From contig NZ_JAAWWS010000132.1 in assembly GCF_012272825.1 (NCBI RefSeq), positions 1-64,000 of the forward strand: a DNA stretch of 64,000 bases. Reading direction: 5' to 3'. This document shows positions 336 through 54,749 of the stretch, one piece after another. This DNA comes from Wenzhouxiangella sp. XN79A (GTDB lineage: Bacteria > Pseudomonadota > Gammaproteobacteria > Xanthomonadales > Wenzhouxiangellaceae). Made by a program: the position numbers and the translations under genes. The notes beneath the pieces are model-generated. The model saw only the letters and a program-made list of their open reading frames with translations, had not been told where the DNA came from and did no database searches. Numbering within the stretch: position 1 is the first letter of the stretch; each line of letters opens with the position of its first letter.

Positions 336-1789
336 GGAATCTCCCGCACCAGCCGGACCTTCTGCCCGGTCGATTTCAGTTCCACCACCGCCGCGCCGTC
401 GACGAAGTCCACCACCCAGGCCGAATCGGGCTGCGCGGCCATCGGCGTGTCGGTCCAGTAGGTCCCGTCGGTGAACGGGAAGTGGCCGATCGCGATCGCC
501 GGATCGCGCTGGCCGGCGTGGACCAGGCCGGCCAGTTCCTCGCGGGTCGGCATCCGCCAGTTGCCCGAACCGCACAGGGCCGCGTCGTTGATCGCCTGCA
601 CCTTGCCTTCCGTATCGCAAGGCGCGCCGGCGCAGGTCCCGCCGTCGGCCGTACCGGCCAGGCCGCCGTCGGTCTGGCCGTCGGTCTCCAGCCAGCTCCA
701 GCTGTGGCCGAAGTGGCGCGGATCGGACGGGTCGTCGACGTGGACTTCCCACATCAGGCCGCTGTGGTTATCGGCGACGCAGGTCCATTCCGTCGCCGAG
801 GCCGGCAGGATCTCGCCGTCCGGGCCGATCCTGGTGAAGTCGAAGCCGGCGGGGCCGGAATCCAGCTTCTCGAGGATGCCGGCGCTGGCCTCGGCATCGC
901 GGCCGGACTCGGCGTCCTGGCCCGGCAGGCCGGCGACCTCGCAGGCCCCGTCGACGCTGCCGGCACAGGCCGTGATGCCCGTGTCGCCCACCTGGCCCAG
1001 CGCGCAGCGCGGGATCGTACCCACGCCCCGGCGCGCTTCGAAGCCGCCGCGGAACAACTCGCAGGCGTCGGCGTTCAGCGGCCCGGGCGGATCGGGCGGC
1101 GGCTGCTTTTGCTCGACTTCCAGCACCACGTCGTCGATCGCAACCAAGGTCGTGGTATCGCTGGAGGCACCGACCAGCGCGGCGCTCAGGGTCAGCGCCT
1201 CGCCGGCGCCGATGCCGTCCAGCGGGATGCGCAGCGTAGCGCCGTTCAAGGTCACCCCCGGACCAAGGTTGAAGCCGCCCGGCACGGCGCTGGCGTTGGC
1301 CGCCGCCGAGGCGTCGGCCCGGAACGTGGCCGCGCGGCTTACGCCGGCGGCGCCCAGGACGTGAATATCGAAGCTTTCCGGGATGAAGCCGCCGTCGGAG
1401 GCGAACTGCGGCAGCTCGGCGAGCCGGAGCCGGAGCGCGACCACGCCGGCCGGCGCGTCGAAGGTCTGCGACAGACCGGCATGGAACGCCCCGCCCTTGA
1501 CGATCCGCGCCGCGCCGCCGACCACCTCGACCGTGCCGGGCGGCGTGGCCGGATCGGGCGAGACTTCGACGGTCCACTCGGCCAGGCCGTTGGCGAAATC
1601 GCCGTTGGGCAGCGGTTGGTCGACGATGACGACGGTATCGGCGAGCGCCGGTGTCGCGCTCAGTGCCCAGAGCAGAGCAGCGATGGCTCGGGTCGACGCC
1701 GCAGCGCCGATGGCGTGATCGTTTCCGGACCGCCGGGTTCGATGGAACCTGCCGGACCGCGGCGCATTGAATCGTTCGATCGAGATCAT
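332..1789 (-). CDS. Secreted protein with C-terminal DUF1566 domain
   Basis: 485 residues. An extended n-region and hydrophobic stretch (about residues 33-50) end in ALA-DT, a likely signal peptidase I site. Next comes a beta-rich module (LPNGDFANGLAEW, about 55-230) of the kind seen in choice-of-anchor secreted proteins. A central tract carries LFRGGFEARRG, which resembles the C-terminal GFE motif of two other proteins in this window. The C-terminal about 160 residues are DUF1566: SGLMWEV, NWRMPTREELAGLV, YWTDTP and a terminal VRLVREIP. Its ATG overlaps the stop of the RHS gene (ATGA at 1786-1789), and its own stop overlaps the next start. Function unknown; export and coupling to the RHS gene are inferred. 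Confidence 0.75.
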   Translation of the reverse strand: MISIERFNAPRSGRFHRTRRSGNDHAIGAAASTRAIAALLWALSATPALADTVVIVDQPLPNGDFANGLAEWTVEVSPDPATPPGTVEVVGGAARIVKGGAFHAGLSQTFDAPAGVVALRLRLAELPQFASDGGFIPESFDIHVLGAAGVSRAATFRADASAAANASAVPGGFNLGPGVTLNGATLRIPLDGIGAGEALTLSAALVGASSDTTTLVAIDDVVLEVEQKQPPPDPPGPLNADACELFRGGFEARRGVGTIPRCALGQVGDTGITACAGSVDGACEVAGLPGQDAESGRDAEASAGILEKLDSGPAGFDFTRIGPDGEILPASATEWTCVADNHSGLMWEVHVDDPSDPRHFGHSWSWLETDGQTDGGLAGTADGGTCAGAPCDTEGKVQAINDAALCGSGNWRMPTREELAGLVHAGQRDPAIAIGHFPFTDGTYWTDTPMAAQPDSAWVVDFVDGAAVVELKSTGQKVRLVREIP

Positions 1790-4700
1790 TGTGCAAGCCC
1801 CGGTGCATTTCCCACTCCGCAGGGGAGCAACAACTTCGCGGCTATTTCTCCGCCCGCTTCCCTATCCTTGTTCGAGTTGCTCGTCGGCGCCGGCAGCAGC
1901 GAGAACGGATCGGCCGGCGCAACCTGCGCCCCTTGCAGCGCCTCCGCGACGTCTTCCAGCACCTCCTCGATGTTCTGACCCAGCGGATAAAAACTGATGA
2001 CCTGACCGATGGCGCCACAGACCACGGAAACGTATTCGACCAGCGCCGACTCCCCGCGCGGATCGACGAACTGCAGCGGGTTGTTTTCCGCGTAGCGGTA
2101 ATGGAACGGCCGCAGCGGATCTTCGGAGGTGAATCGACCGATGGCGGCGTCGTAGACGCGGGCACGATAGTCCCCGAGCCCGCCGGGCAGATCGAAATCG
2201 CGGCCGGTGAAGCGGATCGGATCATCGAGCGTCGGCGCTGGACCCCGGACCTGGCGTCCGAAGGGATCGTAGCCGTACTCGGCGAGCGGCTGGCCCTGCG
2301 CGTCGGTTTCCATCCACACGGTACCGACGTGATCGGTCAGTAGCCAGCGAAGCTGGCCGGCCCGCTCGACGGCGAACGGTCGATCGAGGACGCGACCGTG
2401 CAATCTGCGCCAGACCGGGTTGCCGACGTCATCGATCGCCACGACCGGATTCTCCGAGTCGTGCAGGTAGTTGCGAACGACACCGTCGTGCTCGGCACGC
2501 ACGCGCCAGCCGGTCAGCGCGTACACATAGCTGGCGTTGGAAATCGGCTGACCCATGGCGTCCTCGGCGGTGATCGACTGCAATCGATCCAGGGGCGAGT
2601 AGGTGAATTCGAGCCGTTCGCCGGTGCCGAGATGCTCGCGCGATTCCAGCTGACCCGACGGCGTGTAGCTGTAGACGTGCGTTCCATCGGCCAGCAAGCG
2701 ATGTCCCGCACCGCCTTCCCGGTAGGCGAGCGCCGCCGGTCCCGGGTCGTTCGGACGCGACAGCCAGTTGCCGACGCCGTCGTAGATCGTCTCGCCGCTC
2801 GGCAGACCGCTGGCCACCGGGTGCTGTTCGTCGATCAGCCGTCCCGCACCGTCCCACGCATAGCTGTGCAACCCGTCCGGCCCGTTCATGCCGGTGACCT
2901 GGCCCAGCGCGTTGCGGGTGAAGTCCAGTCGCAGGAGGATCGAATCGTCCGGGCGCCGGTGCGTGACTGCGCTCGGTCCCGAAGGACAGCTGGCGCAGTC
3001 GTACTCGTAGGTCGTCACCGGGCCCGGCTGCGTGCCGGCGAGGTCGGCGTAGCGGCGAACGACGAGCGGGTCGCCGGAACCCGTCGCCTCGATGTCGACC
3101 CGCTTATCCAGCACGCCGACCCCGCTCTGGCGGATCGAGACGAGCCGGTCGATGCCGTCGTACTCGTATTCGGTGATTCCGCCGGCCGAGTCCTCGACCC
3201 GGACCACGTTGCCGTTGCCGTCGTAGTCGTAGCCCAGCCACCAGGTCGGCGTGCCCGGCGCGCTGTGTTCGACGCGTGCGATCCGCCCGGCGAGGTCGTA
3301 CTCGAAGTTCAGCTGGCTGTCGAGCGATGCGACCGACGTCACCCGGTTCAGGTCGTCGTAGGTCCACGTCGCGACCGTGCCCTGCCCGGGCCGCCGCTCC
3401 TCCACGAGCCGGTTGTCGGCGTCATAGATCAGTTCGCGAACCGTCCCGTTGCGGTCGGTGGCGCGCGTGACCTGGCCGAAAGCGTTGTACTCGAACAGCG
3501 TCGCGTTGCCCGTGGAATCGACTTCCTCGGCGATCAGGCCGTAGCTGTTGTAGACGAAGGACCGTTCCTGCAGCTCGGCATCGACGATGCGGGTCAGGAG
3601 CCCGTCGGCATCGTATTCGAAGCGGCGCACCTGGCCCAGCGGGTCGGTTTCGCTCAGCACGCGGCAGCTCGCGTCGTACTCCCGGGTGAAGCAATTGCCG
3701 AGCGGATCGCATTGTTCGATCCAGTCGCTGTCACAGTCGCCGTAGGCCCAGGTCCATTCGGAGCCGTCGGGCAGCACGCGACGGACCTCGTTTCCGTTCT
3801 CGTCGCGCTCGCGCGTGGTGATCCCGCCGTCGCGGTCCCGGTACTCGACTTCGTCACCGCGCTCGTCGTAGGTCCAGCGTTGTTCGAGAAAGTTCACCGC
3901 ATCGAGGTAGTCGTGTTGCACGACCAGCCGGCCGGCGTCGTCGAAGAACCGGTCGGTGCGGAAGCCCCGCGCATCGAACAGCGATTCGACGCCGGATTGG
4001 GCGAAGTCGAACAGCACGCAGCCGTCCAGCGTGGCCGGATCGCCCGTCGGCGGACAGTGCGCGACCATCCGACCCCGGTCGTCGTAGATCATCTGCGCCA
4101 TCGGGTCGCCGTTGGCGTCGCGGGAGGCGGTCACGTGGTGGGGGAAGTCGGGGTCGTCGTAGGCGTAACTCGACGAGCCGCCGGCGGCGTCGACGACCCC
4201 GGTCAGGTTGCCCAGCGCGTCGTAGCTGTAGCTCACCCGGGCCAGTTCGGTGCTGCCGTCCTCGTCGATCAGGACGATGTCGGTGATTCGGCCGTCGACG
4301 TCGCGCAGGTAGTCGACGCGTGCGCCCCAGCTGCTCTGCCAGCCGTCGGCGTCCACGCCGAGCACTCCGCCCTGCGGATCGCGCACTTCGAGCAGACCTT
4401 CGGCCTCGCTGATGCGGTAGACCATACCCTCCTCGGTCTCCAGCTCGTAGATCGTCGGGTTGTACGGGATCAGGTAGTTGGCGTAGCCCCCGCCGAGGGA
4501 GAACACCACGTCCGGCCAGTCGATCGCCCGCAGCGTATCGGTCACGCCCGAATCGGGTTCGTAGCTCACGTCGAACTGGAACGCCGCCGGAAAGCCCTTC
4601 GATTCCGCGGTGAAGGTGAATCCGACGCGCTCGCCGTTCGGCTTGGTCACGACCACGCGCGTCTCGTCGTTGAAGGCCTCGCCACCGAGGAAGGGACCGC

Positions 4701-7700
4701 CGAACGAATCCGCGGCGCTGTCCTCGACCGCCGCCGACAGCGCCAGTCGCCAGCCGGGACCGAAGTTGCCGTCGCTGCGGCCCAGCGGACCGGCATCGAG
4801 GCTGTCGTAGGATCGACCGATGACCAGCGGGAAGGCGCCCAGCTGCCAGACCAGGTCGCGCATCGTGAACGCGACCTGCCCGGGCTTGGCGCCCGTGCCG
4901 GCCGCCAGCGGAATGCGCAGGCCGCCGGTCTGCGCGCCGTCGCTGGCGACCACGTCGATCTCGTAGTCGCCGGCCTGCAGGACCGTCGGATCGAAGACCG
5001 CGACCTCGCCGGCGGTGACCGGACCGCTGCCGCTGTTCAGCACGACCGCGTCCTCGCCGTCCTTGCGGCGCAGCGTCACGTCCCAGGTCAGCACCGCCGG
5101 GGTGTTGTCGTCGATGTCGACGACGATCGGCACCGGCGCGTCGTGGACCGAGCCCACTGCCGGCGAGATCAGGGTCACCACCGGCGCCTGCTCGTCGTTG
5201 CAGTCGGCGACGACCAGCGTCTCGTTGGCCTGCGCGGTCTGGCCGCTGGGGTCGGTGGCCACGGCCACGGCGGCGAACTGGCCGGCGTCTTCGGGCGTCC
5301 ACAGGTGGCAGCGCGACGAGTCCAGCGCGCGCGGCTGGCCGGCGATGTCCAGGGTGACGCTGCTCAGACCGACATCGTCGGCGGCGTCGACGCAGACCGT
5401 GACCGGCTCGGCCCGGCAGGCCGGGTCGCGCAGCATCCGGACACCCACCTCGGGCGGCTGGACGTCGTCCAGCAGATCGATCGTGAAGTTCAGCTCGTCG
5501 CGGCCGCCCCAGCCGTCGGTGACTTCGAGCGACACCGGGTAGCTGCCGGGCACGGCATCGGTGGTGGTCCAGTGCAGCCAGCCGAGACCGGCGTGCAGCG
5601 TCATGCCGGCCGGGCCGTCGAGCAGCCGCCAGGTCGGCGCGTCGCCGTCGGCGTCGGTGGCCAGCATGCGCACGCTGTAGAAGGCACCGAAGGTGACCGA
5701 GGTCGGCGGCACCGTGTCGATGACCGGATCGGAATTGGCGACACGGACCCGCACGACGAAGGCCTGGCTGGCAATGGCACCTTCCGGGTCGGCGGCCTGG
5801 ACGACCACGTCGGCGTCGCCGGCCTGGCCCGCGCCCGGCGTCCAGGCGACCTGACCGGTGTCCGGATCGATGGTCATGCCGGCCGGCGCCGTGGGCAAGG
5901 ACCAGGTCAACGGTTCGAACTCGGGATCGACGGCTTCGGCGGCGTAGGTGTACGGCGAGCCGATCCGGGCCGCGGAATCCGGCGCACTGATCATGTACGG
6001 CGGTTGATTGGGCAGCTGTGGCAGCACTTCGAGATCGAAGCGCTGCAGCGCGACCTGGCCGCCGGCATCGATCGCCTGCAGCTCGATCACGTGGCTGCCG
6101 AGGTCGCCGCCGCCGGGCACCCAGGTCAGGGTCCGGCCGGCCGGATCCAGCGTCATGCCGGCCGGTGCCTGCTGCAGGCTGACCGTCGGTGTGGATTGAT
6201 CGAAGGTGGTCACGCGCCACGGATAGCGGTACTGGACACCCACCGCTGCGAAGGTCTGCGGCACGCTGGAAAAGGCCGGGCCCGGCACGGTCGTCGCCGG
6301 CTCGCCGACGAACAGCGTCCAGGCCTGGGTGGCCCGGCCGCCGCGGCCGTCGTCGGCCACCAGCACCAGGCTGTGCTGGCCCGGTGCCGTCGACGCCCAT
6401 TCGACGAGACCGCTGGCCGGGTCGACGGTCACGCCGGCCGGCGCGGCCTGCAGGCTGAAGCTCAGCGCGTCGCCGTCGAGGTCGTCGGCCTCGGCCGCGT
6501 AGACGTAGGCCGCGCCGATCGGCCGCTGGGTTTCCGGAGACGACAGGAACACGGGCGGGCGGTTGAAGGCCGCGTCCTCGACCCTGACCACGAAACCCTG
6601 GCGGGCGGTCGCGCCGCGGCCGTCATCGGCTTCGATCACCACGTCGAAGCTGCCGGTCGATGCCGGCGTCCACTCGAGCCGCGTGCCGTTCAGCGCCATG
6701 CCGGCCGGTCCGGCGGCAAGGGTCAGCGAAACCGGGTCGCCGTTGCCGTCGGCGGTGGCGATTTCGTAGACCCACGACTGGCCCTGGGTGGCGCGCCCGT
6801 CCGGGATGCTGGTGAAGTACGGCGGCTGGTTGATCGGCGCCAGCAAGCGCGGCGTGAAGTCGATCGGCCGACGATTCGGGTTGCTGAAGGCCAGCGGGCG
6901 GACCGCGGACAACGCCCCGGCCTCGAGCACCTCGCCGCCGGGCACCATCACCACGTAGGGCTCGCCGGCCGGAGTGAAGCCGTCACCGGCCAGCAGGCCG
7001 ACCGCCGGATCGACGTCGTTGCCGACGGTCATCAACACCGGCCCCGGCACGGACGGCCCGTCGTTGAAGACCTGCACGTCGACGAGCAGGCGCTCGCTGC
7101 TTCGGTCGTGCGTGGTGGCCGAGAAGCGCGCCTCGAGCAGCACGGAGGCATCGGCCAGGTCGGCCCAGGGGTCGGCCGCGTCGCCGCCGCCCTCGAGCAC
7201 CAGCGTCGTGACCGCCTCGGCGCAGCGATCGGCCGCGCGCAGCTCGAAGCTGTTCGAGCCGGACGCCAGTTCGACCGCGCTGAAGAACGAGCCCGAGGCA
7301 TCGAACAGGTCGACCGGTTCGCCGTCGAGGGTCACGGTGAGCAGCGGCTGACCGGCCGCTACCGGCAACACCCGGCCGCTGATCACCAGCGGCGCGTCGG
7401 CGGGCAGCACCGCGCGAGCAGCCGGCGACAGGTCGGCAAAGCCCGGCGGGACGGGGTTGCCGTCGAGGTCGAGCACGCAGTCCGGATCGCGGTTCGGGGT
7501 CTGGGTGCGGTAGGTGTTGTGCAGTTCCCAGGAGTTTTCCTCCGTGAACGGCACGCCCCAGTCGCCTTCGATGTTGTTGATGTGGTAGTTGTGCTGGTTC
7601 CAGACCGGACGCGCATCGACCCAGCGGCCCGTGTGGCCGAACACGAACAGGCCGTTGCGCCCGGCGACCACGACCTCGGCCTGGCCGTCACCGTCGACAT

Positions 7701-10700
7701 CGCCCAGCGTCGGATAGTCGAGCACCGTGCCGGAACCGGTGAAGGGCTCGTTGTAGAGCCGCTCCCCGTCCGGCCCGTTGAACAGCAGCAGACCATCGAC
7801 GGCGCCGTTCCAGAGAATCTCCCAGGCGCCGTTGCCGGTCAGGTCCTGGGCCGCGACACCGGAGGCCGAGGCGCTGCTGTCGGCGACGTTCTGTTCCCAG
7901 ACCAGGCTGCCGGCGCGGTCCAGGACCATCAGCAGGTGGTTGCTGACGACCAACCCGGACAGGATCGCCGAGGCCGTGACCAGGTTCGGCTCGCCGTCGC
8001 CGGTGACATCGGCCACGGTGACGGGACTCGGCCGATACAGGTCCGTGCGGTTCGTCGGATAGCGCCACAGCAGCGTGCCGTCGTCGGTCAGCGCTTCGAT
8101 CACATGGCCCCAGTTGATGATGACCTCGGCCCGGCCGTCCTCGTCGAGGTCGGCCACCGCCGGCGCGCCGAAGGCCCGGGTGCCGCCGAGGATCGCAATC
8201 GGATCGGGAAGTTCGCGCGTCCAGGCCACGGTGCCGCCGGCCTGCAGGTCGATCACCTTCAGGATCAGGCCCTGGGCCACGATCAGGTCGAGCACGCCGT
8301 CGCCGGTCAGGTCGGCCAGCACCGGGACTGTCGGCGTCGGCCCCGGCAGCGGATCGCTCCAGGTCACGTCGCCCAGGTGATCGAGCACGTAGAGGGCATC
8401 GTCCTGGGCCGCGATCACGATTTCCGGCTCGGGATCCTGGTCCAGATTGGCGACCGTCGGCCCGCCCCACCCCAGGTCCTCGCCGGCGTTGTAGGACACG
8501 ATCGCGGGGTTGCTCCAGAACAGCTGGCCGTCGTGGTGGAAGGCAAAGGTGCCGTCGCGTCCGACCACGACGATCTCGGCGTCACCGTCCCCGTCGAGGT
8601 CGGCGAGCGCCGGTTCCGCGGCAGGCCCGACCAGGTCGCTGGTCCAGAGGATCGGCGAACCGCCGCCGGCGTCCTGGCCGTCGCCGCGATAGACGTAGAG
8701 GCGACCGTTCAGACCGGGAGCGACCAGCTCCACCGTGCCGTCGCCGTCGAGGTCGCCGATGCCGACGGTCGAGACGAAGCCGCTACCGTTCGCACCCGGC
8801 AGCACTTCCTGCGCCGTGGTGTCGAACCACTCGACGTTCGGCGTATGGCCGAAGGTATCGGGCGGATCGACGTTGAAGGCGTCCAGCCAGGCCACATCGC
8901 CGCCGCTCGACGACAGGGCCACCTGCACGCTGTGTGCGCCTTCGGCCAGGCCGGTGAAATGCAGCGCGCGGGGCTGGCCGCGGAACGGCGCGATCGGTGC
9001 CAGGTCGAACAGGCCCTGCTCGACGCCGTCGATCACGACCCGGATCGTGGTGTTGTCGCGCTCGTAGGCCAGCACCGTCAGCGCGGTGCCGGTGAAGTTG
9101 AACCAGGCATTGGTCTCGACGTTGACGAAGGGCAACAGCACGTCGTCGTCGCGGGCGTACTCGTCGTCGAGTTCGCGCCACCAGCGCCGGTCGCTGAGGG
9201 TCAGCAGGCCGGGCGGCGCGGCATCGAGGTTCGCATCGACCCATCCGTCGGCCACCGGCGTGCCGCTCCAGACATCGATGAAGTCGGGCATCACCGCGCC
9301 GTCGACGACGACGGCCTCGGCCGTGTGCGCACCGGGGACGAGACCGTCGAAGACGAAGGTCTTCGATTCGTTGACCCCGCCGGAGGTATCGAACACGCCC
9401 TGCGATACGCCGTCGATGAAGATCTCGACCGTGCCGCTGGTGTCGGAACTGCGGAAGCCCAGGGCGACCCACCGCCCGTCGAAGTCGAGCTGCATCCGGT
9501 CGCCGGGCGTGCTGCTGCTGGCGTGGTACGTGCGGCTGGCCTGGTTGCGCGATCCCTCCGACCAGCTCTGCGGCATGGAGCGGTACGGCTGGTCGTTGTA
9601 GCGGATCGCCGGGTGGTTTTCCTCGAAGCGGACGATCGCAGGCGCCGGCGGCGGCGGATCGGACGGCCCGGTCGCAGGCGTTGTGACGGCATCGAAGGTG
9701 GACGTATCTCCGCGGACCTGGCTGATCTCCAGCACGTGCGGCCCCGGGCCGAGACCGTCGAAGGAGAATGCGCGCGGGCCCTCGTTCTGGGCGTAGAGAT
9801 CCGCGACCGCCACCGACGCGCCGTTGATCCGGATGTCGACGTCCTGGTAGGTGAAGCGGGTCCGGCCCTGCCAGGTCACCGAATCACCGGTGAACGCGAA
9901 CCACGCCGTGGTGCCGTTCGCGATCCCGGTCTGGAGGAACGCACCCCCGCTGGCGTCGGCCGCGCTCGCCCGGCTCCAGCCACGGCCGAGCGACACCCGG
10001 GCGTCGTCGTCCTCGAAGGTGCCCTCGGCCAGCGGAAGGCCGTCCCAGACCTCGAAGAAGTCCAGCGCCACCCGCGTCCCGCTCGATGCCGGCGATGCAC
10101 TGCCCAGCACGGTGATGGTGACGGTGTGCGGTCCTGGACCGAGGTCGCGGTAGTAGCGGCTCAGCGTGTCGGTGTAGCGGGTATAGAGATCCAGCGTGTC
10201 GACCATGACGCCGTCGATCGCGATCTCGGCCTGGCCGCCGAAGCGGTCGGTCAGAAAGCCCAGTCCCAGCCACTCGCCGTCGAAGTCGAACGCGATCTCG
10301 TCGCCCGCCGCGGCCGAGTAGACCACCTCGCCGGCGCTGGCGCGGCTCGAGGTGAGGTCGGCGGTCGTGACCCAGTCCTGGCTGGCCCGGATCAGCGGGC
10401 CGCCGTCGTAGCGAAGCGCCGGATGGTCGGCTTCGAAGCGCTGGATGCCGGTGATCGGAGCGTTCGGATCGATGAATGGCGCCGTCCCCGGCGTAGTGAT
10501 CCGATCGATGGTCGCTTCGTCCTGGTAGGCGGCGATCTCGAGCACGTGATGGCCCGGCCCGAACCCTTCGTAGGAAAAGACGCGCGGCTCGGAGTTGCTG
10601 GCGAACACCCCCGGCTCGAAGAGATCGATGATGTCCAGCGGTTCCCCATCGACGTACAGCTGAACACGTCCGCCATTGCTGTTGACCAGGGCGTGCAGGC

Positions 10701-11574
10701 TGAAGGAATCGCCGGAGAACGGGAACCAGGCCGTTCCGAAACTCGAACGCAGATAGCTGCCGCCGCTGGCGCCGGCGTAGTTGACCGACGTCCAGGCATC
10801 GCTGATCAACAGGCGCGGGTCGGTCTCCTCGAAGTCCCCGTCCGGCAGCAGCGAGCCGTCGCCGGAGTCCGCGTAATCCAGCTTGACGAAGGCACTGGCG
10901 GCGAACGGGTTCGCCGTGCCGGTCACGGTCAGCCCGATGCTGTGGACCCCGGCGGCCAGGCCGTCGAAGCGCAGCCGGACCGAGCGTTCCTGGCGCCGGT
11001 ACAGGTCGAACGTTCCCTGGCTGACGCCGTCGATCGTGATCTCCACCTCGCCGCCGAGCCGGTCGCCGATGAAGCCGAGGCTGACCCAGGTGCCGGTGAA
11101 GGTGAACTGGGCCGTCGCGCCGGCCGTGTTGCTCTGGGTGAAACTGCCGCCGCTGGCCCGGCTGAGCGATCCGGCCGACCAGCTGCCCGTGTAGGTCCAG
11201 TCGAGCGCGTCCTGCTCGGCGCGCGCGAAGGCCGGCGCAAGCCCGCCGCGCGGTCCGGACGTCCGGGACGGCACCGTCGTCCCGGTTTCCGCCGAATCCG
11301 GCCCGGGCTCGGACGGGACGACCGCTGCCCCGTCGTCGACGCCTCGCGTCGCTGCCCCCGCATCGGGGGCGTCCGCGGTCGGCAGCAAGGGCAGGCCGGA
11401 GTCCGGCGCAAGGCCGTGGGCCAGGGAAGCGCCCATCAACAGGAGAAGGCCGATCACGCGGCCCGCGACGGGACGGAACGAACTGGATTGCTGCGATCGA
11501 CGCGACATGCCGGAAATCTCTGCGGAGCCGGGGGTTCTCCTGGCTATACGCGGTCGATCGTCGCAACCCTTCAT
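1786..11574 (-). CDS. Giant RHS-repeat surface protein with FG-GAP and Ig-like domains
   Basis: 3,262 residues. The ATG at 11574 has an AGGA box about 6 bases upstream; ATG 11508 (MSRRSQQ) would give a more normal signal peptide (VIGLLLLMGASLAHG). Rough order: four related beta-sandwich modules at 118-898 (each with FTGxW-type and IDG segments); FG-GAP/VCBS repeats at 925-1325 with DLDGDG calcium-type loops; Ig/cadherin-like repeats at 1590-2025 (AGPAGM, GLVEWA); RHS entry (GRSYDSLDAG) near 2250; YD/RHS repeats at 2440-3030; and the RHS core GDYRARVYDAAIGRFTSEDP near 3135. The tail after DPRG is only about 90 residues and matches no toxin I recognise. RHS proteins form a cage around their own C-terminus; here the role is probably surface or adhesive. 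Two DUF1566 genes follow in overlap. Confidence 0.9.
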   Translation of the reverse strand: MKGCDDRPRIARRTPGSAEISGMSRRSQQSSSFRPVAGRVIGLLLLMGASLAHGLAPDSGLPLLPTADAPDAGAATRGVDDGAAVVPSEPGPDSAETGTTVPSRTSGPRGGLAPAFARAEQDALDWTYTGSWSAGSLSRASGGSFTQSNTAGATAQFTFTGTWVSLGFIGDRLGGEVEITIDGVSQGTFDLYRRQERSVRLRFDGLAAGVHSIGLTVTGTANPFAASAFVKLDYADSGDGSLLPDGDFEETDPRLLISDAWTSVNYAGASGGSYLRSSFGTAWFPFSGDSFSLHALVNSNGGRVQLYVDGEPLDIIDLFEPGVFASNSEPRVFSYEGFGPGHHVLEIAAYQDEATIDRITTPGTAPFIDPNAPITGIQRFEADHPALRYDGGPLIRASQDWVTTADLTSSRASAGEVVYSAAAGDEIAFDFDGEWLGLGFLTDRFGGQAEIAIDGVMVDTLDLYTRYTDTLSRYYRDLGPGPHTVTITVLGSASPASSGTRVALDFFEVWDGLPLAEGTFEDDDARVSLGRGWSRASAADASGGAFLQTGIANGTTAWFAFTGDSVTWQGRTRFTYQDVDIRINGASVAVADLYAQNEGPRAFSFDGLGPGPHVLEISQVRGDTSTFDAVTTPATGPSDPPPPAPAIVRFEENHPAIRYNDQPYRSMPQSWSEGSRNQASRTYHASSSTPGDRMQLDFDGRWVALGFRSSDTSGTVEIFIDGVSQGVFDTSGGVNESKTFVFDGLVPGAHTAEAVVVDGAVMPDFIDVWSGTPVADGWVDANLDAAPPGLLTLSDRRWWRELDDEYARDDDVLLPFVNVETNAWFNFTGTALTVLAYERDNTTIRVVIDGVEQGLFDLAPIAPFRGQPRALHFTGLAEGAHSVQVALSSSGGDVAWLDAFNVDPPDTFGHTPNVEWFDTTAQEVLPGANGSGFVSTVGIGDLDGDGTVELVAPGLNGRLYVYRGDGQDAGGGSPILWTSDLVGPAAEPALADLDGDGDAEIVVVGRDGTFAFHHDGQLFWSNPAIVSYNAGEDLGWGGPTVANLDQDPEPEIVIAAQDDALYVLDHLGDVTWSDPLPGPTPTVPVLADLTGDGVLDLIVAQGLILKVIDLQAGGTVAWTRELPDPIAILGGTRAFGAPAVADLDEDGRAEVIINWGHVIEALTDDGTLLWRYPTNRTDLYRPSPVTVADVTGDGEPNLVTASAILSGLVVSNHLLMVLDRAGSLVWEQNVADSSASASGVAAQDLTGNGAWEILWNGAVDGLLLFNGPDGERLYNEPFTGSGTVLDYPTLGDVDGDGQAEVVVAGRNGLFVFGHTGRWVDARPVWNQHNYHINNIEGDWGVPFTEENSWELHNTYRTQTPNRDPDCVLDLDGNPVPPGFADLSPAARAVLPADAPLVISGRVLPVAAGQPLLTVTLDGEPVDLFDASGSFFSAVELASGSNSFELRAADRCAEAVTTLVLEGGGDAADPWADLADASVLLEARFSATTHDRSSERLLVDVQVFNDGPSVPGPVLMTVGNDVDPAVGLLAGDGFTPAGEPYVVMVPGGEVLEAGALSAVRPLAFSNPNRRPIDFTPRLLAPINQPPYFTSIPDGRATQGQSWVYEIATADGNGDPVSLTLAAGPAGMALNGTRLEWTPASTGSFDVVIEADDGRGATARQGFVVRVEDAAFNRPPVFLSSPETQRPIGAAYVYAAEADDLDGDALSFSLQAAPAGVTVDPASGLVEWASTAPGQHSLVLVADDGRGGRATQAWTLFVGEPATTVPGPAFSSVPQTFAAVGVQYRYPWRVTTFDQSTPTVSLQQAPAGMTLDPAGRTLTWVPGGGDLGSHVIELQAIDAGGQVALQRFDLEVLPQLPNQPPYMISAPDSAARIGSPYTYAAEAVDPEFEPLTWSLPTAPAGMTIDPDTGQVAWTPGAGQAGDADVVVQAADPEGAIASQAFVVRVRVANSDPVIDTVPPTSVTFGAFYSVRMLATDADGDAPTWRLLDGPAGMTLHAGLGWLHWTTTDAVPGSYPVSLEVTDGWGGRDELNFTIDLLDDVQPPEVGVRMLRDPACRAEPVTVCVDAADDVGLSSVTLDIAGQPRALDSSRCHLWTPEDAGQFAAVAVATDPSGQTAQANETLVVADCNDEQAPVVTLISPAVGSVHDAPVPIVVDIDDNTPAVLTWDVTLRRKDGEDAVVLNSGSGPVTAGEVAVFDPTVLQAGDYEIDVVASDGAQTGGLRIPLAAGTGAKPGQVAFTMRDLVWQLGAFPLVIGRSYDSLDAGPLGRSDGNFGPGWRLALSAAVEDSAADSFGGPFLGGEAFNDETRVVVTKPNGERVGFTFTAESKGFPAAFQFDVSYEPDSGVTDTLRAIDWPDVVFSLGGGYANYLIPYNPTIYELETEEGMVYRISEAEGLLEVRDPQGGVLGVDADGWQSSWGARVDYLRDVDGRITDIVLIDEDGSTELARVSYSYDALGNLTGVVDAAGGSSSYAYDDPDFPHHVTASRDANGDPMAQMIYDDRGRMVAHCPPTGDPATLDGCVLFDFAQSGVESLFDARGFRTDRFFDDAGRLVVQHDYLDAVNFLEQRWTYDERGDEVEYRDRDGGITTRERDENGNEVRRVLPDGSEWTWAYGDCDSDWIEQCDPLGNCFTREYDASCRVLSETDPLGQVRRFEYDADGLLTRIVDAELQERSFVYNSYGLIAEEVDSTGNATLFEYNAFGQVTRATDRNGTVRELIYDADNRLVEERRPGQGTVATWTYDDLNRVTSVASLDSQLNFEYDLAGRIARVEHSAPGTPTWWLGYDYDGNGNVVRVEDSAGGITEYEYDGIDRLVSIRQSGVGVLDKRVDIEATGSGDPLVVRRYADLAGTQPGPVTTYEYDCASCPSGPSAVTHRRPDDSILLRLDFTRNALGQVTGMNGPDGLHSYAWDGAGRLIDEQHPVASGLPSGETIYDGVGNWLSRPNDPGPAALAYREGGAGHRLLADGTHVYSYTPSGQLESREHLGTGERLEFTYSPLDRLQSITAEDAMGQPISNASYVYALTGWRVRAEHDGVVRNYLHDSENPVVAIDDVGNPVWRRLHGRVLDRPFAVERAGQLRWLLTDHVGTVWMETDAQGQPLAEYGYDPFGRQVRGPAPTLDDPIRFTGRDFDLPGGLGDYRARVYDAAIGRFTSEDPLRPFHYRYAENNPLQFVDPRGESALVEYVSVVCGAIGQVISFYPLGQNIEEVLEDVAEALQGAQVAPADPFSLLPAPTSNSNKDREAGGEIAAKLLLPCGVGNAPGLAQ

Positions 11575-40015: not shown

Positions 40016-40192
40016 CTCGACTGGACCATCGTCCGGCGCGTGGTACTGACGGGCGGCGCCTGCGGAAACGACACCATCCGAACCGATCCCGCAGCGTTCA
40101 GCATGGGGATGATCTCGAGAGCCTTTGTGGCCGATTCCCCGGTCTCCGAGATCGAGGATTCGAACCACCTCCATCAGGCGCCGGTGCCAGCA
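40016..40192 (+). pseudogene. Relic of the C-terminus of an NAD(P)-binding SDR
   Basis: Plus-strand translation LDWTIVRRVVLTGGACGNDT, then FSMGMISRAFVADSPVSEIE and DSNHLHQAPV. It matches the C-terminus of the intact gene at 58424-59059 (MKWTIARPVVLTGG, FRMGIISRASVADFLVSSIE, ESSYLHEAPVLN). The copy is cut at its final residues by MITE-like element B. Upstream, VDERRIMSAARS in another frame may continue the match. Confidence 0.75.
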
Positions 40193-40193
40193 C

Positions 40194-40348
40194 GCATTAT
40201 TCATGAATCGCCGCGATGATTGCGCCGGGAATTGTTCGCACAGGGGATTTTCCGACCGAGCGGACTACCATGCTCTATTTCCGAGCGAGGACGATTCGCT
40301 GTGCGGACAAGGACCAGGCAAGGGCACGAGCTCATTCATGAATAATGC
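40194..40348 (+). mobile_element. MITE-like element B, copy 1 (155 bp)
   Basis: Perfect 15-bp inverted ends gcattattcatgaat (40194-40208) and attcatgaataatgc (40334-40348). The interior nearly matches the reverse complement of the copy at 47499-47653. No coding capacity. It adjoins the SDR relic at its left end. The next 150 bp, to 40501, hold nothing I can support. Confidence 0.85.
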
Positions 40349-40501
40349 GGGCGAGACGGACGGGTCGGATCGACAAGCCCAGGCAAGCAGGACTCCGACC
40401 CTTGATTCGTTTCGCCCCCCTGGTTCGTGCCTGCTTGCGGTTCGCGTGATGGTCCCGTCCCGTTCGATCGATCGGCGCAACGCGCTCCGATCGTCCGCGA
40501 T

Positions 40502-46467: not shown

Positions 46468-46580
46468 GGGCATGCCGACGTCAGGGTACCGGCGCGACTT
46501 CGCTTGCCAGAAGCAGCGGTGAACACGAGTCCGGTCTGGAATCCGTGGTCATCTGCCGACGTTCCCGAGCACTGCCGGTG

Positions 46581-47018
46581 TACCCCGTCATTAATCCTGT
46601 GACATTCAGAGCATGACCGAGTCGACAGTGCAAGACGCAACCCGCAGCGAACGGCAAGCCCTTTACTCGGGTCGGAACGTCGGGTCGGAACGCCGCACTG
46701 TCGACTCGGACGCACTCCCGAAGGGCGAGTCCGCTTTTCATGACCGCTTTTCATGAGCGCTTTTCATGAGCGCTTTTCATGAGCGATCGTGATGACAAGC
46801 GTGGTGACAAGCGCGCTCATCTGGGGCGTCAGGGCGCTTGGAAAGGCTCTACGCAATGTCGGTTCAGGCGCGCTCCTTGAAGGGCGAGTCGGAGAGCATT
46901 CATCTGCGGCGTTCTGTCGCCTGGAAAGGACGCTGCCGTTCCCGGCGAGACAGGCCTTGCAGCCAAATGCTCTCCGACTCGCTATACGTTACACAATGAG
47001 CATGAGTGGCGGGGCACA
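46581..47018 (-). mobile_element. MITE-like element A, copy 2 (438 bp, expanded)
   Basis: Inverted relative to copy 1 at 36129-36384. Read on the minus strand it shares tatagcgagtcggagagc, tttggctgcaaggcctgtc, cctttccaggcgacagaacg, ggagcgcgcctgaaccgac and cttgcactgtcga. The right end meets CTAG at 47019-47022; the left end (taccccgtcatta) has drifted and lacks CTAG. The extra length includes a 13-bp tandem repeat. No transposase. Confidence 0.75.
46731..46782 (+). repeat. 13-bp tandem repeat, four copies
   Basis: Units starting at 46731, 46744, 46757 and 46770: (c/g)cgcttttcatga. The last two are identical, the first two differ only in the first base. It lies inside the expanded element A copy and explains part of its extra length. 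Confidence 0.9.
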
Positions 47019-47060
47019 CTAGACCGACCGCTCTTCGCTGCCGGCCGGACGGGAGCCTTC

Positions 47061-47495
47061 ATGCAGACCATCGACATCACCGAAACCATCGCGCTGCCGA
47101 TCGACCGGGCCTTCGAGCTACTGGCCGACCACGCCGACTACCATCGTTTTCCCGGAATCACTCGGTCCGAACTGCTGCAGGAAGGCACGCCGGCGCCCAA
47201 CGGACTCGGCGCGCTGCGACGTGTGGCGCTGGGCCGGGTCGTACTGGATGAGGAAATCACCGGCTTCGAGCCGCCGGACCGGCTGGCCTACCGGGTCATC
47301 GCCTCGAAACCCGTCGAGGTGGTGCACGAAGGCGGGGTAATCGAACTGACCGAAGTCCCCGAGGGCACCCGCATCCGCTGGCGCTCGACCTTCGAACTGA
47401 AGATTCCGCTGGTCGGCGGGCTCGTCACTCGGCGCGCGGCGCGGCAGTTCGAGCGGGGGTTCCGGAAGGTGCTGCGCGCGCTGCCCGAACTCTAG
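47061..47495 (+). CDS. SRPBCC/START-like ligand-binding protein
   Basis: 144 residues. The helix-grip pattern is clear: ITETIALPIDRAFELLADHADYHRF at the start, a central sheet (GLGALRRVALGRVVLDEEITGFEPPDRLAYRVI), GGVIELTEVPEGTRIRWRSTFELK, and a long C-terminal helix (RRAARQFERGFRKVLRALPEL). These proteins bind hydrophobic molecules in a deep cavity; many are annotated as polyketide cyclase/dehydrase-like. No catalytic residue can be assigned. It is isolated between element A copy 2 and element B copy 2. Confidence 0.82.
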   Translation: MQTIDITETIALPIDRAFELLADHADYHRFPGITRSELLQEGTPAPNGLGALRRVALGRVVLDEEITGFEPPDRLAYRVIASKPVEVVHEGGVIELTEVPEGTRIRWRSTFELKIPLVGGLVTRRAARQFERGFRKVLRALPEL

Positions 47496-47498
47496 CCC

Positions 47499-47653
47499 GC
47501 ATTATTCATGAATGAGCTCGCGCCCTTGCCTGGTCCTTGTCCGCACAGCGAATCGTCCTCGCTCGGAAATACAGCAGGGTATTCCGCTCGGTCGGAAAAT
47601 CCCCTGTGCGAACGATTCCCGGCGCAATCATCGCGGCGATTCATGAATAATGC
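47499..47653 (-). mobile_element. MITE-like element B, copy 2 (155 bp)
   Basis: Same length and ends as the copy at 40194-40348, in the opposite orientation: gcattattcatgaat at 47499-47513 and attcatgaataatgc at 47639-47653. The interior matches the other copy with few differences, suggesting recent spread. It starts 3 bp after the SRPBCC stop codon and ends about 40 bp past the stop of the convergent amidohydrolase. Confidence 0.85.
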
Positions 47654-47691
47654 GGGCGAGTGGGCCACAGACTTACAGCTCCGCCGAGCCC

Positions 47692-49437: not shown

Positions 49438-50427
49438 AGGAGGGTCCGGAACAGGCGTCGAGCGTCGACGCGAAAGTAGCACATCTCTTGCCTGGGCAGT
49501 TCTCATCGCAAGAACCCCCCCCGGAGAAGGCCCGGGATTCCGCGCATGGGTGTCCGGACGCTCTCGATATCCCGTGCCGCATGCTTTCGGGCGTTTTCGA
49601 GACGCCCGGCTACCACCCAAGATCCGCGCTCTTCCTGACCGACGTCGCCGCCGACCGGCGGCTCGAGTTTCAGCAGGACTCGCGCGAACCGGGCCCGCTC
49701 ATGGTGCGCGTGCGTTCGGTCTGGACGCCGATCAGCGCCCAGCGATCGCCATCCATCCGGTAGGCCATGATCGAGTCCACTTCCGGCGTGTTGGCCCGTT
49801 CCGGGCCTTCATGAAGCAGCGAAGAGACCCCGAGTTCGAGCACTTCGCCGCGACGGACGGAACTACGAATCACCGTCGAGTCGAGCGGGCCGTACTCAAC
49901 CGACCCGGCGTCAGGCGCAGCAGCACCCCCGAAGAAAATACCGGCCGGTGAGGTCGGACACGATCTGCTGATTGTCCGGCACCGAACCCGGGGCAGCGTG
50001 GAGCTCGTGAAACGCTGCGCTCACTCTACCGACACCCAGTGCGCGATGCACGGCCCGACCCCTCTGTTCCTGACCCCTCTGGTCCTGGAGGGGCCGGAGA
50101 AAAGGGGCCGGAATCTGCCTTGGGCAATTGCCCAGGGAACGCGTTTCCAGTAGATTCCCTCTGGTCTCGGCCCGAAGAGATCGATGCCTGGGATACACTC
50201 GAATCAGCGGTGGCCCGCTGATTCGATGCAGACAACGCACTGGTGCCCCGGCGTGATTCCGGCGGGTGAATGCCGGATCCCCGGGCGCAATCGATCCCAG
50301 GGTTGCCCAGCACGAGATCGCAGGGGCGCCCGTTTCCCCGACGCTTCGATCCGCCAGAACCCGGTAGCCGCGAATCGGATTTCCGGCCGTCCAGCTGTTC
50401 GCTGTTGCCAGAGGAATAGTCGACAAG
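49438..50427. other. Long stretch without a supportable gene
   Basis: Nearly 1 kb. A minus-strand frame at 49670-49873 (LELGVSSLLHEG, SIMAYRMDGDRWALIGVQTE) looks protein-like but short and unidentifiable, probably a relic. Near 50055-50090 the words ctgttcctgacccctctggtcctg form an imperfect repeat, and tgggcaattgccca at 50120-50133 is a perfect 14-bp palindrome. The promoter of the membrane-protein gene at 50428 must lie in the last 200 bp. Confidence 0.4.
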
Positions 50428-51945
50428 ATGTTCAATTCCGAGAAGACTCCTGCCGTCGAGGCCGTCAAGAGCGCGGCTTCCACCGGCGCCCTGATCTTCT
50501 CCATCGTCATCATTGCGGGGTTGATCTTCACCGGGCAGACGAGTCTTGCCCAGGACATTCACCCTGTCTTCGTCGTCATCGTGCTGACGCTGGCGGTGGT
50601 CTGGCTGTCGATCGTCGAAGGAGGTCAGGCATCCCTGGTCGGCCTCGCACCGGTCAGCCACGATCTCTACGCCGAGTCCCACAGGATTGCGCACAAAAGC
50701 TGCGTCGACGCCCACAGCGGCGATTCACTCGACCGCTATCTCCTGGGCCGTCAGTTCATGGTCGTGTTCATCGTCTTTGCCATCAACATCGCCGGAGGAC
50801 CTGTCAGCGGCGCCGAGCTCTGGGGCTTCCCCCAGTGGCTACTCAGCATATTCCTCGGCGTCGGACTGGCCATGATTCTGTTCACCACCATGTGCGGTCA
50901 GCTGAATTCGCAGGTCAATGCCTCTCACTGCATGCTCGATTATCTGAACACCTGGCCGAACTATTTCACGTTCCGGGTGGCCAAGGCCATCGAGTTTTCC
51001 GGCATCGTTCATGCGTCGTACATCATCCAGATCATCGTCGCCAGCCTTGCCGGAAAGAAGACCGGACTCAGAGAGCGGCCGCGGTCCGATCTCCAGGATC
51101 TCTTCTTCTACTTCCGCTGCTTCATGTCGCTCGTCCTGTTGATCTTCGCCTTCGTCATCACGCTGGCCGCCCTGTTCGAAGGCAAGACGACGATGTGGGA
51201 GAGCGTCCCCAACGTTGCGGCCGTGGTTGTCTTCTTCCTTCTGATGTGCGTGGTCGGACTACTGGAGGGCATGCAGATTGCGTTTTTCGCAGTCTCCAAG
51301 CTGCCCGAAGATGAGCGTGGCGATAACGTCTGGGCGAAGAAGACCTGTCGATTGCTCTTCCGCGGAGACGCGCACAATCTCTCGGCCTTCATGATCGGCC
51401 GCCAGCTCTGTGTCGTGTCGTGCATGTTCTTCATTGCGCGGGTGACCTCCTTCGACATCGATCCCGGCGCCGGCGATGCCACGTTGTGGGGGATCCCCGC
51501 CTGGGCGCAGATATTCCTCAATACCGGCTTCCTCGGCGCTCTGATCACCACGATTCTTGCATCGATCGCATGGCAGCTCGTGGCTTCGGCATTCCCCATC
51601 GCCTTCCTCTCCAATCCCTTCACCTACGTGCTGCTTCGCCTCTGTCTTGCCCTGAAGGCCACCGGCATATGCAACGGAGCCTACGTCATCGCGTGGATTC
51701 ACCGGAAGATCGCCGGGTTCCAGCGCGACGAGGTGTACATCGGAACCGCCGAAGAACGTCGCGCCAGGGCCAAGGCCGACAACCTGGACAAGATCCGAAC
51801 CGGCACCGGGCACCTGCTGAAGCTGCCAGCATTCGTGGAGGACGCCCCCGAGTCCCTGAAAGAACTCGCCCGAAACGATACCGAAGTCCAGGAATACATC
51901 TCTTCGATTCACAAACAGGCCGATATCGAAAGCTCGAAGCCCTGA
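50428..51945 (+). CDS. Silicon-transporter-like (SIT-like) membrane protein, duplicated halves
   Basis: 505 residues, AGAGGA about 11 bases upstream. About ten membrane helices and an obvious internal duplication. Half 1 has IVEGGQASL (EGxQ at 64-67), YLLGRQFMV (GRQ at 107-109) and LWGFPQW (131-137). Half 2 has LLEGMQIAF (280-283), FMIGRQLCV (324-326) and LWGIPAW (353-359), an offset of 216-222 residues. Paired EGxQ and GRQ motifs, once per half, define the silicic-acid transporters (SITs) of diatoms and other eukaryotes, where they are thought to form the substrate site. No other transporter family I know has this pair. The C-terminal about 75 residues are cytoplasmic, with a possible coiled coil (AEERRARAKADNLDK). 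No linked gene. GC looks lower than neighbours. Function as a silicon channel is an inference. Confidence 0.75.
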   Translation: MFNSEKTPAVEAVKSAASTGALIFSIVIIAGLIFTGQTSLAQDIHPVFVVIVLTLAVVWLSIVEGGQASLVGLAPVSHDLYAESHRIAHKSCVDAHSGDSLDRYLLGRQFMVVFIVFAINIAGGPVSGAELWGFPQWLLSIFLGVGLAMILFTTMCGQLNSQVNASHCMLDYLNTWPNYFTFRVAKAIEFSGIVHASYIIQIIVASLAGKKTGLRERPRSDLQDLFFYFRCFMSLVLLIFAFVITLAALFEGKTTMWESVPNVAAVVVFFLLMCVVGLLEGMQIAFFAVSKLPEDERGDNVWAKKTCRLLFRGDAHNLSAFMIGRQLCVVSCMFFIARVTSFDIDPGAGDATLWGIPAWAQIFLNTGFLGALITTILASIAWQLVASAFPIAFLSNPFTYVLLRLCLALKATGICNGAYVIAWIHRKIAGFQRDEVYIGTAEERRARAKADNLDKIRTGTGHLLKLPAFVEDAPESLKELARNDTEVQEYISSIHKQADIESSKP

Positions 51946-52409
51946 CAACGATCCCGGATGCCTATACTTCTTTTCGGGCCAGGGTCCAGGGCATGGAGAA
52001 CGATTTCTACCAACGATCCGGCGCCAAGAATCCCCTGTCCAGCGTTCTGGCCACAAGGATCGTCCGCATCGGCGCCGCCGGCGACGAATCGCGCCCAGGG
52101 AACCTCTGAACAAATCTGCACGGGCGCGACGGAGCGCTTGTCATGACGATCGGCGGGATCACCCGGCCTGGCTTCGAGGCGCGTGGTTTTGTGATTCCAA
52201 ATGAGCGAGTCCGATTCTCAGACTGTGCCTGACCAATTGATTCGTGCAATTGATTCTGCTCGGGAAGCGGAAACAATTCTTCCAGGGACGCGCGATGCGC
52301 GTCGTGCAGGCCATCGATCCGCCGGATCGCGTTGGGCGAAGCGTAGCGGGTCTTCGACCGGTTCAGTGGCCGGACCGGGGCGAGACGGCTGGCCCGTTCA
52401 CCGTCGCGT
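51946..52409. other. Intergenic stretch with a short dispersed repeat
   Basis: No supportable gene. At 52221-52243 the word gactgtgcctgaccaattgattc matches 58372-58394 with one mismatch, the second occurrence being the edge of the TonB-receptor relic. The word caattgattc is followed by a second caattgattc five bases later. Looks like a dispersed REP-type end. Confidence 0.5.
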
Positions 52410-54749
52410 TCACCGAATCTCGGCCTCGAACCCGCTGAAGAACACCACGTCGCTGGTCCCGCGCAGCATCAGGCGGTCCGGGCTGGCGGCGGCGTTGGAG
52501 TCGACGATCAGCGTGGCCTCACGCAGCCCGGGCGCCGTCGGTGCGTAGCGGAGGTCGATCGCACAGCTCTCGCCGCCGTCGAGCGCCGCGCCGGTGCAGC
52601 CGTCGGCCAGCAGCGAGAAGTCGGCCGCGTGGGCGCCGCCCAGGGTCAGCGCGGCGATCTCCAGCGGGCCGATGCCGATATTCTCGACAAGCAGCGAGCG
52701 GATGGCCTGCTGGCCCGCTTCGACATCCCCGAAATCCAGCGGCGCATCGGAAAAACCGACCACCGGCGCCGGCAGGCCTTCACCGGCCAGAGAAATCGAG
52801 TCGGGGCTGGTCGTTGACGTGCCGATGAGCTGCAGCGGGCCGCCGATCGGACCCACGGCCTGCGGCGAGAAGCGCAGCGTCAGCGTGCAGGCGCCGTCGA
52901 CCGCGATCCGGATCGGCAGCGGGCCGCAGCTGCCGCCGACGACCGAGAACGAGGGGTCCGGCAGCGCGATGCTGTCGATCGACACCAGGCCGGTGCCCGG
53001 GTTGGAGAGCGTGACGGTCTGTGTGCCGCTGGTCGCGCCGACCTCCCAGGCGCCGAAGTCGATGGCCGCAGCGCTGAAGTCCAGCAGCGGCGTGCCGGTG
53101 ACGCGGCCGTAGACCAGGTAGGCCTGGCCGGCGTCGACCCGGCCGGACGGCGCGGCGTTCGGCGCGCCGCTCAGCAGGTCGGCCACGCCGTCGTCGTCGA
53201 CGTCGCCGGCCGACCAGACCGCCCATCCGTTGGCCTCGTTCTCGAATTCACCGATCAGGGCGAGGCCGTCGCTGCCGTCCAGGTCGGCCACGGCGATGCG
53301 CGCCGGGAACGCCGTGCGGCGCCCGAACACCACGTAGCTCCGACCCGTCTCGCCGGCCACCGGGCCGGTGCCGCGGATCGCGCCGGCCAGCAGATCGTCG
53401 ACGCCGTCGCCGTTGACGTCGCCGAGGCGGCCGACGCGCCGACCGAGGCGATCGTTGTCCGCCTCGCCGTCGATCGTGAAGCCGTTGCTGCCGTCGAGTC
53501 CGGCCAGGCTCATCGGCGAGGTAAACCCGCCCGCGCGCCCGAACACGACGTGAGCGGTGCCGGCCCGGAAGATGCCGCCCGGGTCTGCGACGAAAGCGCC
53601 GATGATCACGTCGTCGAAGCCGTCGTCGTTGACGTCGCCGGCCCCGCTGGCCGAAATGCCGGACCGGTCCTGAGCCACCGCGCCGTCGAAGCGCACGCCG
53701 TTCGACCCGTTCAGGCCCGACAGGTCGAAATCCAGCGGAAACGAGGAAGCCCCGAACACCAGGTAGGTCCGGCCCGCGTCGTCCAGCCCGCCGGCGGACG
53801 CCGAGCTGGCTCCGACCACGAAATCGTCGAAGCCGTCGCCGTTGACGTCGCCCGCGCCGGCGATGGCATCGCCGAGGTTGTCGCCGGCGGCTTCGCCGTC
53901 GAACCGGAAGCCGGAACCGGCATCGAGGGTCTGCAGGTCCAGCACCGCCGGAAACGACGGTCGACCGTAGATCACATAGCCCCGACCGGACCACGCCCCG
54001 TTGGCACCGCCGTCGACCGCGGCCAGGCCGACGTCGTCGAACCCATCGCCGTTGATGTCGCCGAGCAGAGCGACCTCGTCACCGAGAAAGTCCCGCGACT
54101 GCGCGCCATCGATCCGGACGCCGTTGCTCCCGTCCAGGTCGGCCAGCGAGAACCGCGCCGGCCACGCGCCCGCCCGGCCGAACACCACGTAGGCACTGCC
54201 GGCGGCGTCGCGACCGTCCGGGTCCGCGGTGTAGGCCCCGATGACCAGGTCGGCGAAGCCGTCACCGTTGACGTCACCGTCCAGCGCGACCGCGCTGCCC
54301 GCGCGATCGAATTCCGATACGCCGTCCAGCGCGAAGCCGTTGCTGCCGTCCAGGTCGGCGGGCGAGAACGAGCCGGGCAGGCCGCCGGCAGTGCCGAAGA
54401 CCAGATAGACGGTGCCGGCGGACGACTGGCCGTTCGGATCGGCCCGGTCGGCGCCGATCACGAAGTCGTCGATGCCGTCGCCGTTGAAGTCGCCTGCGCC
54501 GCCGACCGACCAGCCAAGCTTGTCCTCGGCCGCCACGCCCTCGACGATGACCCCGTCGCCGCCATCGAGCAGGCCCAGCTGGATTTCAGGCGGAAAGGCC
54601 TGGGCGAGAATCGCGGCGGGGACGGCCAACAGCACCATCGCCAGCAGCGCGGCGGCGAGCCGCGCCGGAGACACCCGCTCGGGCGCGACGAGAGGACGAT
54701 CGCCGACCCCGGCGGCAACGCTGGCGGCAAGCACGTGATCCGTGTTCAT
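52410..54749 (-). CDS. FG-GAP beta-propeller protein with ASPM/Hydin-like C-terminus and GFE motif
   Basis: 779 residues with an unusually long n-region before the signal helix (RLAAALLAMVLLAVPAAILAQ, about residues 30-50). Seven FG-GAP repeats at about 60-545, each with a calcium-type D-N-DG-DD loop (GDFNGDGIDDFVIG, GDVNGDGFDDFVVG) and VVFGRAG-type strands, make one integrin-like propeller. Two choice-of-anchor-D (ASPM/SPD-2/Hydin) modules follow (LDFSAAAIDFGAWEVGATSG; APLDFGDVEAGQQAIRSLLV). The end is GTSDVVFFSGFEAEIR, close to the end of the mosaic protein at 25876. Probably secreted. It begins 91 bp after the kinase stop on the same strand, so it may be an output of that regulatory pair. 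Confidence 0.87.
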   Translation of the reverse strand: MNTDHVLAASVAAGVGDRPLVAPERVSPARLAAALLAMVLLAVPAAILAQAFPPEIQLGLLDGGDGVIVEGVAAEDKLGWSVGGAGDFNGDGIDDFVIGADRADPNGQSSAGTVYLVFGTAGGLPGSFSPADLDGSNGFALDGVSEFDRAGSAVALDGDVNGDGFADLVIGAYTADPDGRDAAGSAYVVFGRAGAWPARFSLADLDGSNGVRIDGAQSRDFLGDEVALLGDINGDGFDDVGLAAVDGGANGAWSGRGYVIYGRPSFPAVLDLQTLDAGSGFRFDGEAAGDNLGDAIAGAGDVNGDGFDDFVVGASSASAGGLDDAGRTYLVFGASSFPLDFDLSGLNGSNGVRFDGAVAQDRSGISASGAGDVNDDGFDDVIIGAFVADPGGIFRAGTAHVVFGRAGGFTSPMSLAGLDGSNGFTIDGEADNDRLGRRVGRLGDVNGDGVDDLLAGAIRGTGPVAGETGRSYVVFGRRTAFPARIAVADLDGSDGLALIGEFENEANGWAVWSAGDVDDDGVADLLSGAPNAAPSGRVDAGQAYLVYGRVTGTPLLDFSAAAIDFGAWEVGATSGTQTVTLSNPGTGLVSIDSIALPDPSFSVVGGSCGPLPIRIAVDGACTLTLRFSPQAVGPIGGPLQLIGTSTTSPDSISLAGEGLPAPVVGFSDAPLDFGDVEAGQQAIRSLLVENIGIGPLEIAALTLGGAHAADFSLLADGCTGAALDGGESCAIDLRYAPTAPGLREATLIVDSNAAASPDRLMLRGTSDVVFFSGFEAEIR

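Follow-up and report, generated by a model that had tools for sequence, protein, structure and literature searches.

The window, i.e. the whole 64,000-nucleotide stretch of DNA analysed here, from Wenzhouxiangella sp. XN79A, carries a gene (sit) that, judged by its sequence, encodes a genuine full-length silicon transporter (SIT), and this gene is part of the bacterial chromosome: its neighbours are bacterial, its codons are adapted to the host, it is under strong purifying selection, and a second bacterial genome has an orthologue of it. With this protein, a known family gains a member in an unexpected domain of life: full-length SITs have so far been reported from eukaryotes only, bacteria being known for half-size SIT-Ls (PMC5100055; PMC12016540), and a search of open-access literature turned up no bacterial SIT of full length. 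A search of GTDB release 207 with PF03842 had given eight SIT-Ls, all of them in the bacterial SIT-L branch (PMC12016540). The Bacillus 'SITs' (PMC13403384) are not counted here, since that work relates them to sequences from streptophytes, with 35-42% identity along part of the length.

The account as a whole, i.e. a genuine full-length SIT that was captured from the diatom lineage, spread sporadically, became domesticated and would take up silicic acid coupled to Na+, is given a probability of about 75%. A natural bacterial SIT would show that the diatom silicon pump, used by diatoms for building glass shells, can be domesticated by a bacterium, and it would prompt the question whether heterotrophic bacteria use silicon. 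It would also be a possible system for studying silicon uptake, and may express well in E. coli for structural work.

Gene, protein and family membership

The open reading frame (50428-51945, plus strand) starts with ATG and codes for 505 amino acids; a possible ribosome-binding site, AGAGGAA, was seen on inspection of the sequence 11 nt 5' of the ATG (50410-50416, plus strand). Its product is matched by the Pfam profile PF03842 (Silic_transp) with E = 1.6e-193 and 644 bits, residues 9-493 aligning to positions 4-488 of the 513 of the model, where the cut-off is 26.8 bits, and no second Pfam family was matched on the protein by the Pfam profile search. This search had been proposed by the sequence-only reading, which had taken the protein for a SIT with both halves fused; the end-to-end match, the homology of the halves and the shared residues all bear that call out, and an unrelated Pfam family was not found. 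The NCBI subfamily model TIGR00811 ('sit') also matches the protein, at 573.9 bits, which is below its curated cut-off of 1047.6 bits. That cut-off appears strict, because a diatom-type SIT (contig L003, see below) likewise misses it with 935 bits. Among the PDB sequences, no chain matches the protein by sequence.

Hydropathy peaks and the homology between the halves indicate ten transmembrane helices, arranged as two five-helix halves. Each half has one EGxQ-GRQ pair, all the motifs being encoded on the plus strand: the first EGxQ, present as EGGQ (residues 64-67, 50617-50628), with Q67 corresponding to Q62 of PtSIT1 (PMC4912633); the first GRQ (residues 107-109, 50746-50754), with Q109 corresponding to Q104; the second EGxQ, present as EGMQ (residues 280-283, 51265-51276), with E280 and Q283 corresponding to E275 and Q278; and the second GRQ (residues 324-326, 51397-51405), with Q326 corresponding to Q321. 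Three proteins were compared, the window SIT, its bacterial orthologue (contig L002) and the diatom-type SIT, and in each of their six halves the E, G and Q of EGxQ and the G, R and Q of GRQ are the same. Between helices 4 and 5 lies the CMLD motif (residues 168-171, 50929-50940), typical of diatom SITs, with D171 corresponding to D166 of PtSIT1 (PMC10700740, PMC6114903, PMC4912633). Diatom SITs have been defined by a single CML(I)D motif and four GXQ motifs, X being Q, G, R or M (PMC10700740), and the window SIT contains exactly one CML(I)D and four GXQ (GGQ, GRQ, GMQ and GRQ).

The EGxQ, GRQ and LWG motifs were all found exactly where the sequence-only reading had placed them, the last one as LWGFPQW at residues 131-137 and LWGIPAW at residues 353-359. 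LWGxPxW was considered as a signature of the SIT family and rejected, being absent from both the orthologue and the diatom-type SIT; the pair thus looks like a coincidence of the window SIT alone.

Compared with the diatom SITs (PtSIT1 and C. fusiformis SIT1, for example), the window SIT shares the ten-helix 5+5 architecture, the two EGxQ-GRQ pairs, the CMLD position, a QxxxQ in helix 4 and an FQxDxVYI near the C-terminal end. It differs from them in its bacterial host, host codon usage and short C-terminal tail, as well as in being only 53% identical to the one diatom-type SIT compared and below the TIGR00811 cut-off. With the bacterial SIT-Ls (Synechococcus, Rhodococcus opacus, Methylomarinum, Arenicella, Sinobacterium and others) it has in common the family, a bacterial host and the EGxQ-GRQ motifs (PMC5100055, PMC12016540); these are, however, half-size proteins of five helices with one motif pair that form a clade of their own, whereas the window SIT, with its two pairs in 505 residues, is full-length and diatom-type. 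The fused ten-helix Group 1 architecture is also that of the SITs from haptophytes and choanoflagellates (PnSIT1, SdSIT).

Two halves and the age of their fusion

The N- and C-terminal halves of the window SIT align over 195 columns with 29.7% identity (76 bits; E about 1e-21), the best of 1,000 shuffles used as a control reaching 25 bits, so that the two homologous halves described from the sequence alone hold. In the comparison with the diatom-type SIT, the identity is 50% between the N halves, 62% between the C halves and 23-28% between N and C halves. The tree of the halves, with this one diatom-type SIT as comparator, separates an N clade and a C clade at 100% ultrafast bootstrap. Since N groups with N and C with C, the fusion is older than the split of the window SIT from diatom-type/eukaryotic SITs, and this grouping rules out an independent bacterial fusion of the halves. 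A single shared fusion with such grouping is the mark of Group 1 SITs, and the window SIT shows it.

Bacterial residence and distribution

The host genome (3.75 Mb) is 99.97% complete and 0.21% contaminated, and sit lies inside a 65.9-kb contig. On one side, an amidohydrolase lipoprotein gene ends at or before 49620; its counterpart in a closed genome from the same family is 80% identical, and it is a gene of that bacterial family. On the other side, the adjoining gene codes for an FG-GAP protein (52410-54749); further neighbours encode a TPR-containing Ser/Thr kinase and an ECF sigma factor. Both nearest genes are on the strand opposite to sit, which is monocistronic by position, in agreement with the earlier remark that it stands alone with no linked gene; likewise, no silica-handling partner gene linked to sit was found at the locus. 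The GC3 of sit is 0.80 (0.77-0.90 for the neighbours), and its codon usage correlates at 0.85 with the genes of the window vs 0.35 with the diatom-type gene.

Two relatives came out of a pattern scan that covered 84,980 species genomes. One of them, L002, is a contig of a Wenzhouxiangellaceae metagenome-assembled genome (MAG) and encodes an orthologue 78% identical to the window SIT; the residues differ at 22%, with dN of about 0.15 and saturated dS, so the bacterial pair appears, from the two sequences, to be old and under strong purifying selection. The other, L003 (JACUUV010000112.1), is a contig of 3.4 kb from a Clostridia MAG, its SIT being 53-56% identical to the bacterial SITs (52.6% over 500 columns with the window SIT). 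This contig is probably a misbinned eukaryotic, diatom-type contig in a public genome, because its SIT scores high with the profiles (877 bits with PF03842, 935 bits with TIGR00811), its long flanks of sit are AT-richer and hold no clear gene, and no other SIT match was found among 399 sampled genomes of the phylum to which that MAG belongs. Profile searches detected sit in 2 of 43 genomes of the family and in 2 of about 1,137 sampled genomes of the phylum, in both cases in the window host and the L002 host; a same-genus genome, 99% complete, is without it. No SIT relatives were found among viral contigs (three queries), phages or plasmids (two queries).

Insertion sites and spread within the family

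In the second host, sit (GC3 0.53; neighbour 0.55) is located between an intact tRNA-Leu(taa) gene (2063-2149 of L002) and a 51-nt repeat of the 3' end of that tRNA (4533-4583), the two being identical at 45 of 51 positions (best of 200 shuffles, 28). A relative without SIT has the same order of antiporter, tRNA-Gly, tRNA-Cys and tRNA-Leu genes as L002, followed directly by a DUF423 gene. Judged by this anatomy, sit of L002 would have inserted at a tRNA gene as a single gene; the one-gene island (2063-4583) no longer has an integrase.

The neighbours of the window sit differ from those of the L002 sit. There are no tRNA-type repeats around the former, and a clean empty site for it was not found in five relatives, in which the local gene order is not conserved. 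The SecY proteins of the two sit hosts are 83% identical, a value compatible with inheritance from a common ancestor followed by many losses as well as with an early transfer between genera. Sporadic transfer within the family is favoured, since the neighbours differ and a nearly complete same-genus genome lacks sit.

Predicted function

Mutations in PtSIT1 identified eight residues (R98, D166, E184, E275, Q62, Q104, Q278 and Q321) whose change crippled the transporter (PMC4912633), and all eight are kept in the window SIT at a constant offset of +5. Altogether, 13 of the 15 PtSIT1 positions named in that study match at +5, the next best offset matching 2. S20, N115, H190, Y193 and S229 are kept at the same offset too; the two positions without a match are Q324, apparently a variant of Q321 in that paper, and S372, located past a difference in length. 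PtSIT1 carries Na+ and Si(OH)4 at 1:1 with a KM of about 20 uM (PMC4912633), and the five-helix SITLs of coccolithophores also carry silicic acid with Na+ (PMC10098502). Because the key residues of PtSIT1 are kept at one constant offset, we infer for the window SIT an uptake of silicic acid driven by Na+ through alternating access; it would be, like PtSIT1, a sodium-coupled symporter of undissociated silicic acid. Cultured relatives of the host are saline or soda-lake bacteria (PMC7691419), and the sodium gradient of a saline habitat would drive silicic acid into the cell.

In plants and some algae, silicon is also transported by effluxers of the Lsi2/ArsB type, a family unrelated to SIT. The host genome has CitMHS (PF03600) proteins, of a kind common to most bacteria and unlinked to sit.

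Origin and alternative explanations

The SITs of haptophytes are 24.9-29.3% identical to those of diatoms (PMC4742977), and the window SIT, at 53-56%, is about twice as close to the diatom-type SIT. Parmales, the sister group of diatoms, have SITs that belong to the basal clade B of the diatom SITs (PMC10328945). It should be noted that donor and direction are read from identity benchmarks, from a single diatom-type sequence (L003, in turn only probably eukaryotic) and from the distribution; on these, a capture from a diatom-lineage eukaryote (diatoms or Parmales) fits best and is most likely, because of the closeness to L003, the CMLD motif, the patchy bacterial distribution and the tRNA-flanked insertion in the second host. 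The gene would have been captured from the diatom (ochrophyte) lineage after the SIT fusion, would then have spread sporadically as a single-gene insertion in one halophilic gammaproteobacterial family, and would have been domesticated there.

The same observations speak against the view of the sequence-only reading that the gene, as a bacterial relative, tells something about how silicon transport arose in eukaryotes, i.e. that bacteria held the fused SIT early and that a bacterial lineage was ancestral to, or donor of, the eukaryotic (at least the diatom) SITs. The halves are slightly less diverged in the bacterial SIT (28.5%) than in the diatom-type SIT (22.2%), and a bacterial SIT-L clade exists whose root position has been left unresolved (PMC5100055), both of which would suit such an ancestry. 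The rarity of sit in the phylum and a closeness to the diatom-type SIT about twofold above the published haptophyte-diatom values nevertheless make it improbable. A recent bacterial donor would, moreover, leave unexplained why Group 1 SITs occur across diatoms, haptophytes and choanoflagellates and are connected with eukaryotic Group 1 SIT-Ls (PMC5100055). The version in which the fused diatom-type SIT was bacterial first and then passed to ochrophytes, the window sit being a survivor of the donor line, is held to be equally improbable. Still less credit is given to an assembly artefact, in which a eukaryotic SIT contig was misjoined into, or binned with, bacterial genomes: the Clostridia MAG with its diatom-type contig is a precedent, and the L002 contig is short and of low coverage (2.4x), but the window sit is internal to its long contig, is flanked on either side by bacterial genes and uses codons as its host does, and the independent second assembly presents a 78% orthologue with the base composition of its own, different host and the family's own upstream genes.

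A true SIT might have a different small uncharged hydroxide or metalloid as its substrate (boric, germanic or arsenous acid), or might export silicic acid; bacteria have no established need for silicon and no silica gene was found linked to sit at the locus, which speaks for this. It is, however, regarded as unlikely in view of the identical spacing at which all eight PtSIT1-critical residues are kept, the purifying selection that holds on sit, and the Na+-coupled carriage of silicic acid even by five-helix SITLs (PMC10098502).

Structure models and repeats around the locus

A LeuT-like inverted-repeat fold has been suggested for SITs (PMC4742977). The AlphaFold model of the full-length window SIT, made with three sequences only, has a pLDDT of 38 and is unusable, and that of the C half, made with six half sequences, has a pLDDT of 68 and no significant PDB match by Foldseek. 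Among the non-significant Foldseek matches of the C-half model, CNNM/CorC Mg2+ transporters account for five of the top nine (E 0.24-1.7), which may be taken as a lead on the ancestry of the SIT fold only.

About 150 bp after the stop codon of sit lies the truncated end of an interspersed repeat with the terminus GGGAACCTCTGAACAA (52093-52213, plus strand), complete copies of which, of about 276 bp and with the inverted ends GGGAACCTCTGAACAA/TTGTTCAGAGGTTCCC, are present in same-genus genomes (L073, L075 and L076). This genus-wide element is MITE-like. Other short interspersed repeats of the window occupy positions 47484-47668, 46852-47031, 46578-46745 and also 40190-40356; they include an element of roughly 170 nt, with more than 20 copies among those listed, at 94-98% identity elsewhere in the genome, and two further short-repeat families at 70-91% identity, and are partly common to same-genus genomes. 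The window also encodes (1786-11574, minus strand) a protein of 3,262 amino acids with Ig-like, FG-GAP and RHS repeats, a giant surface protein of the RHS type.
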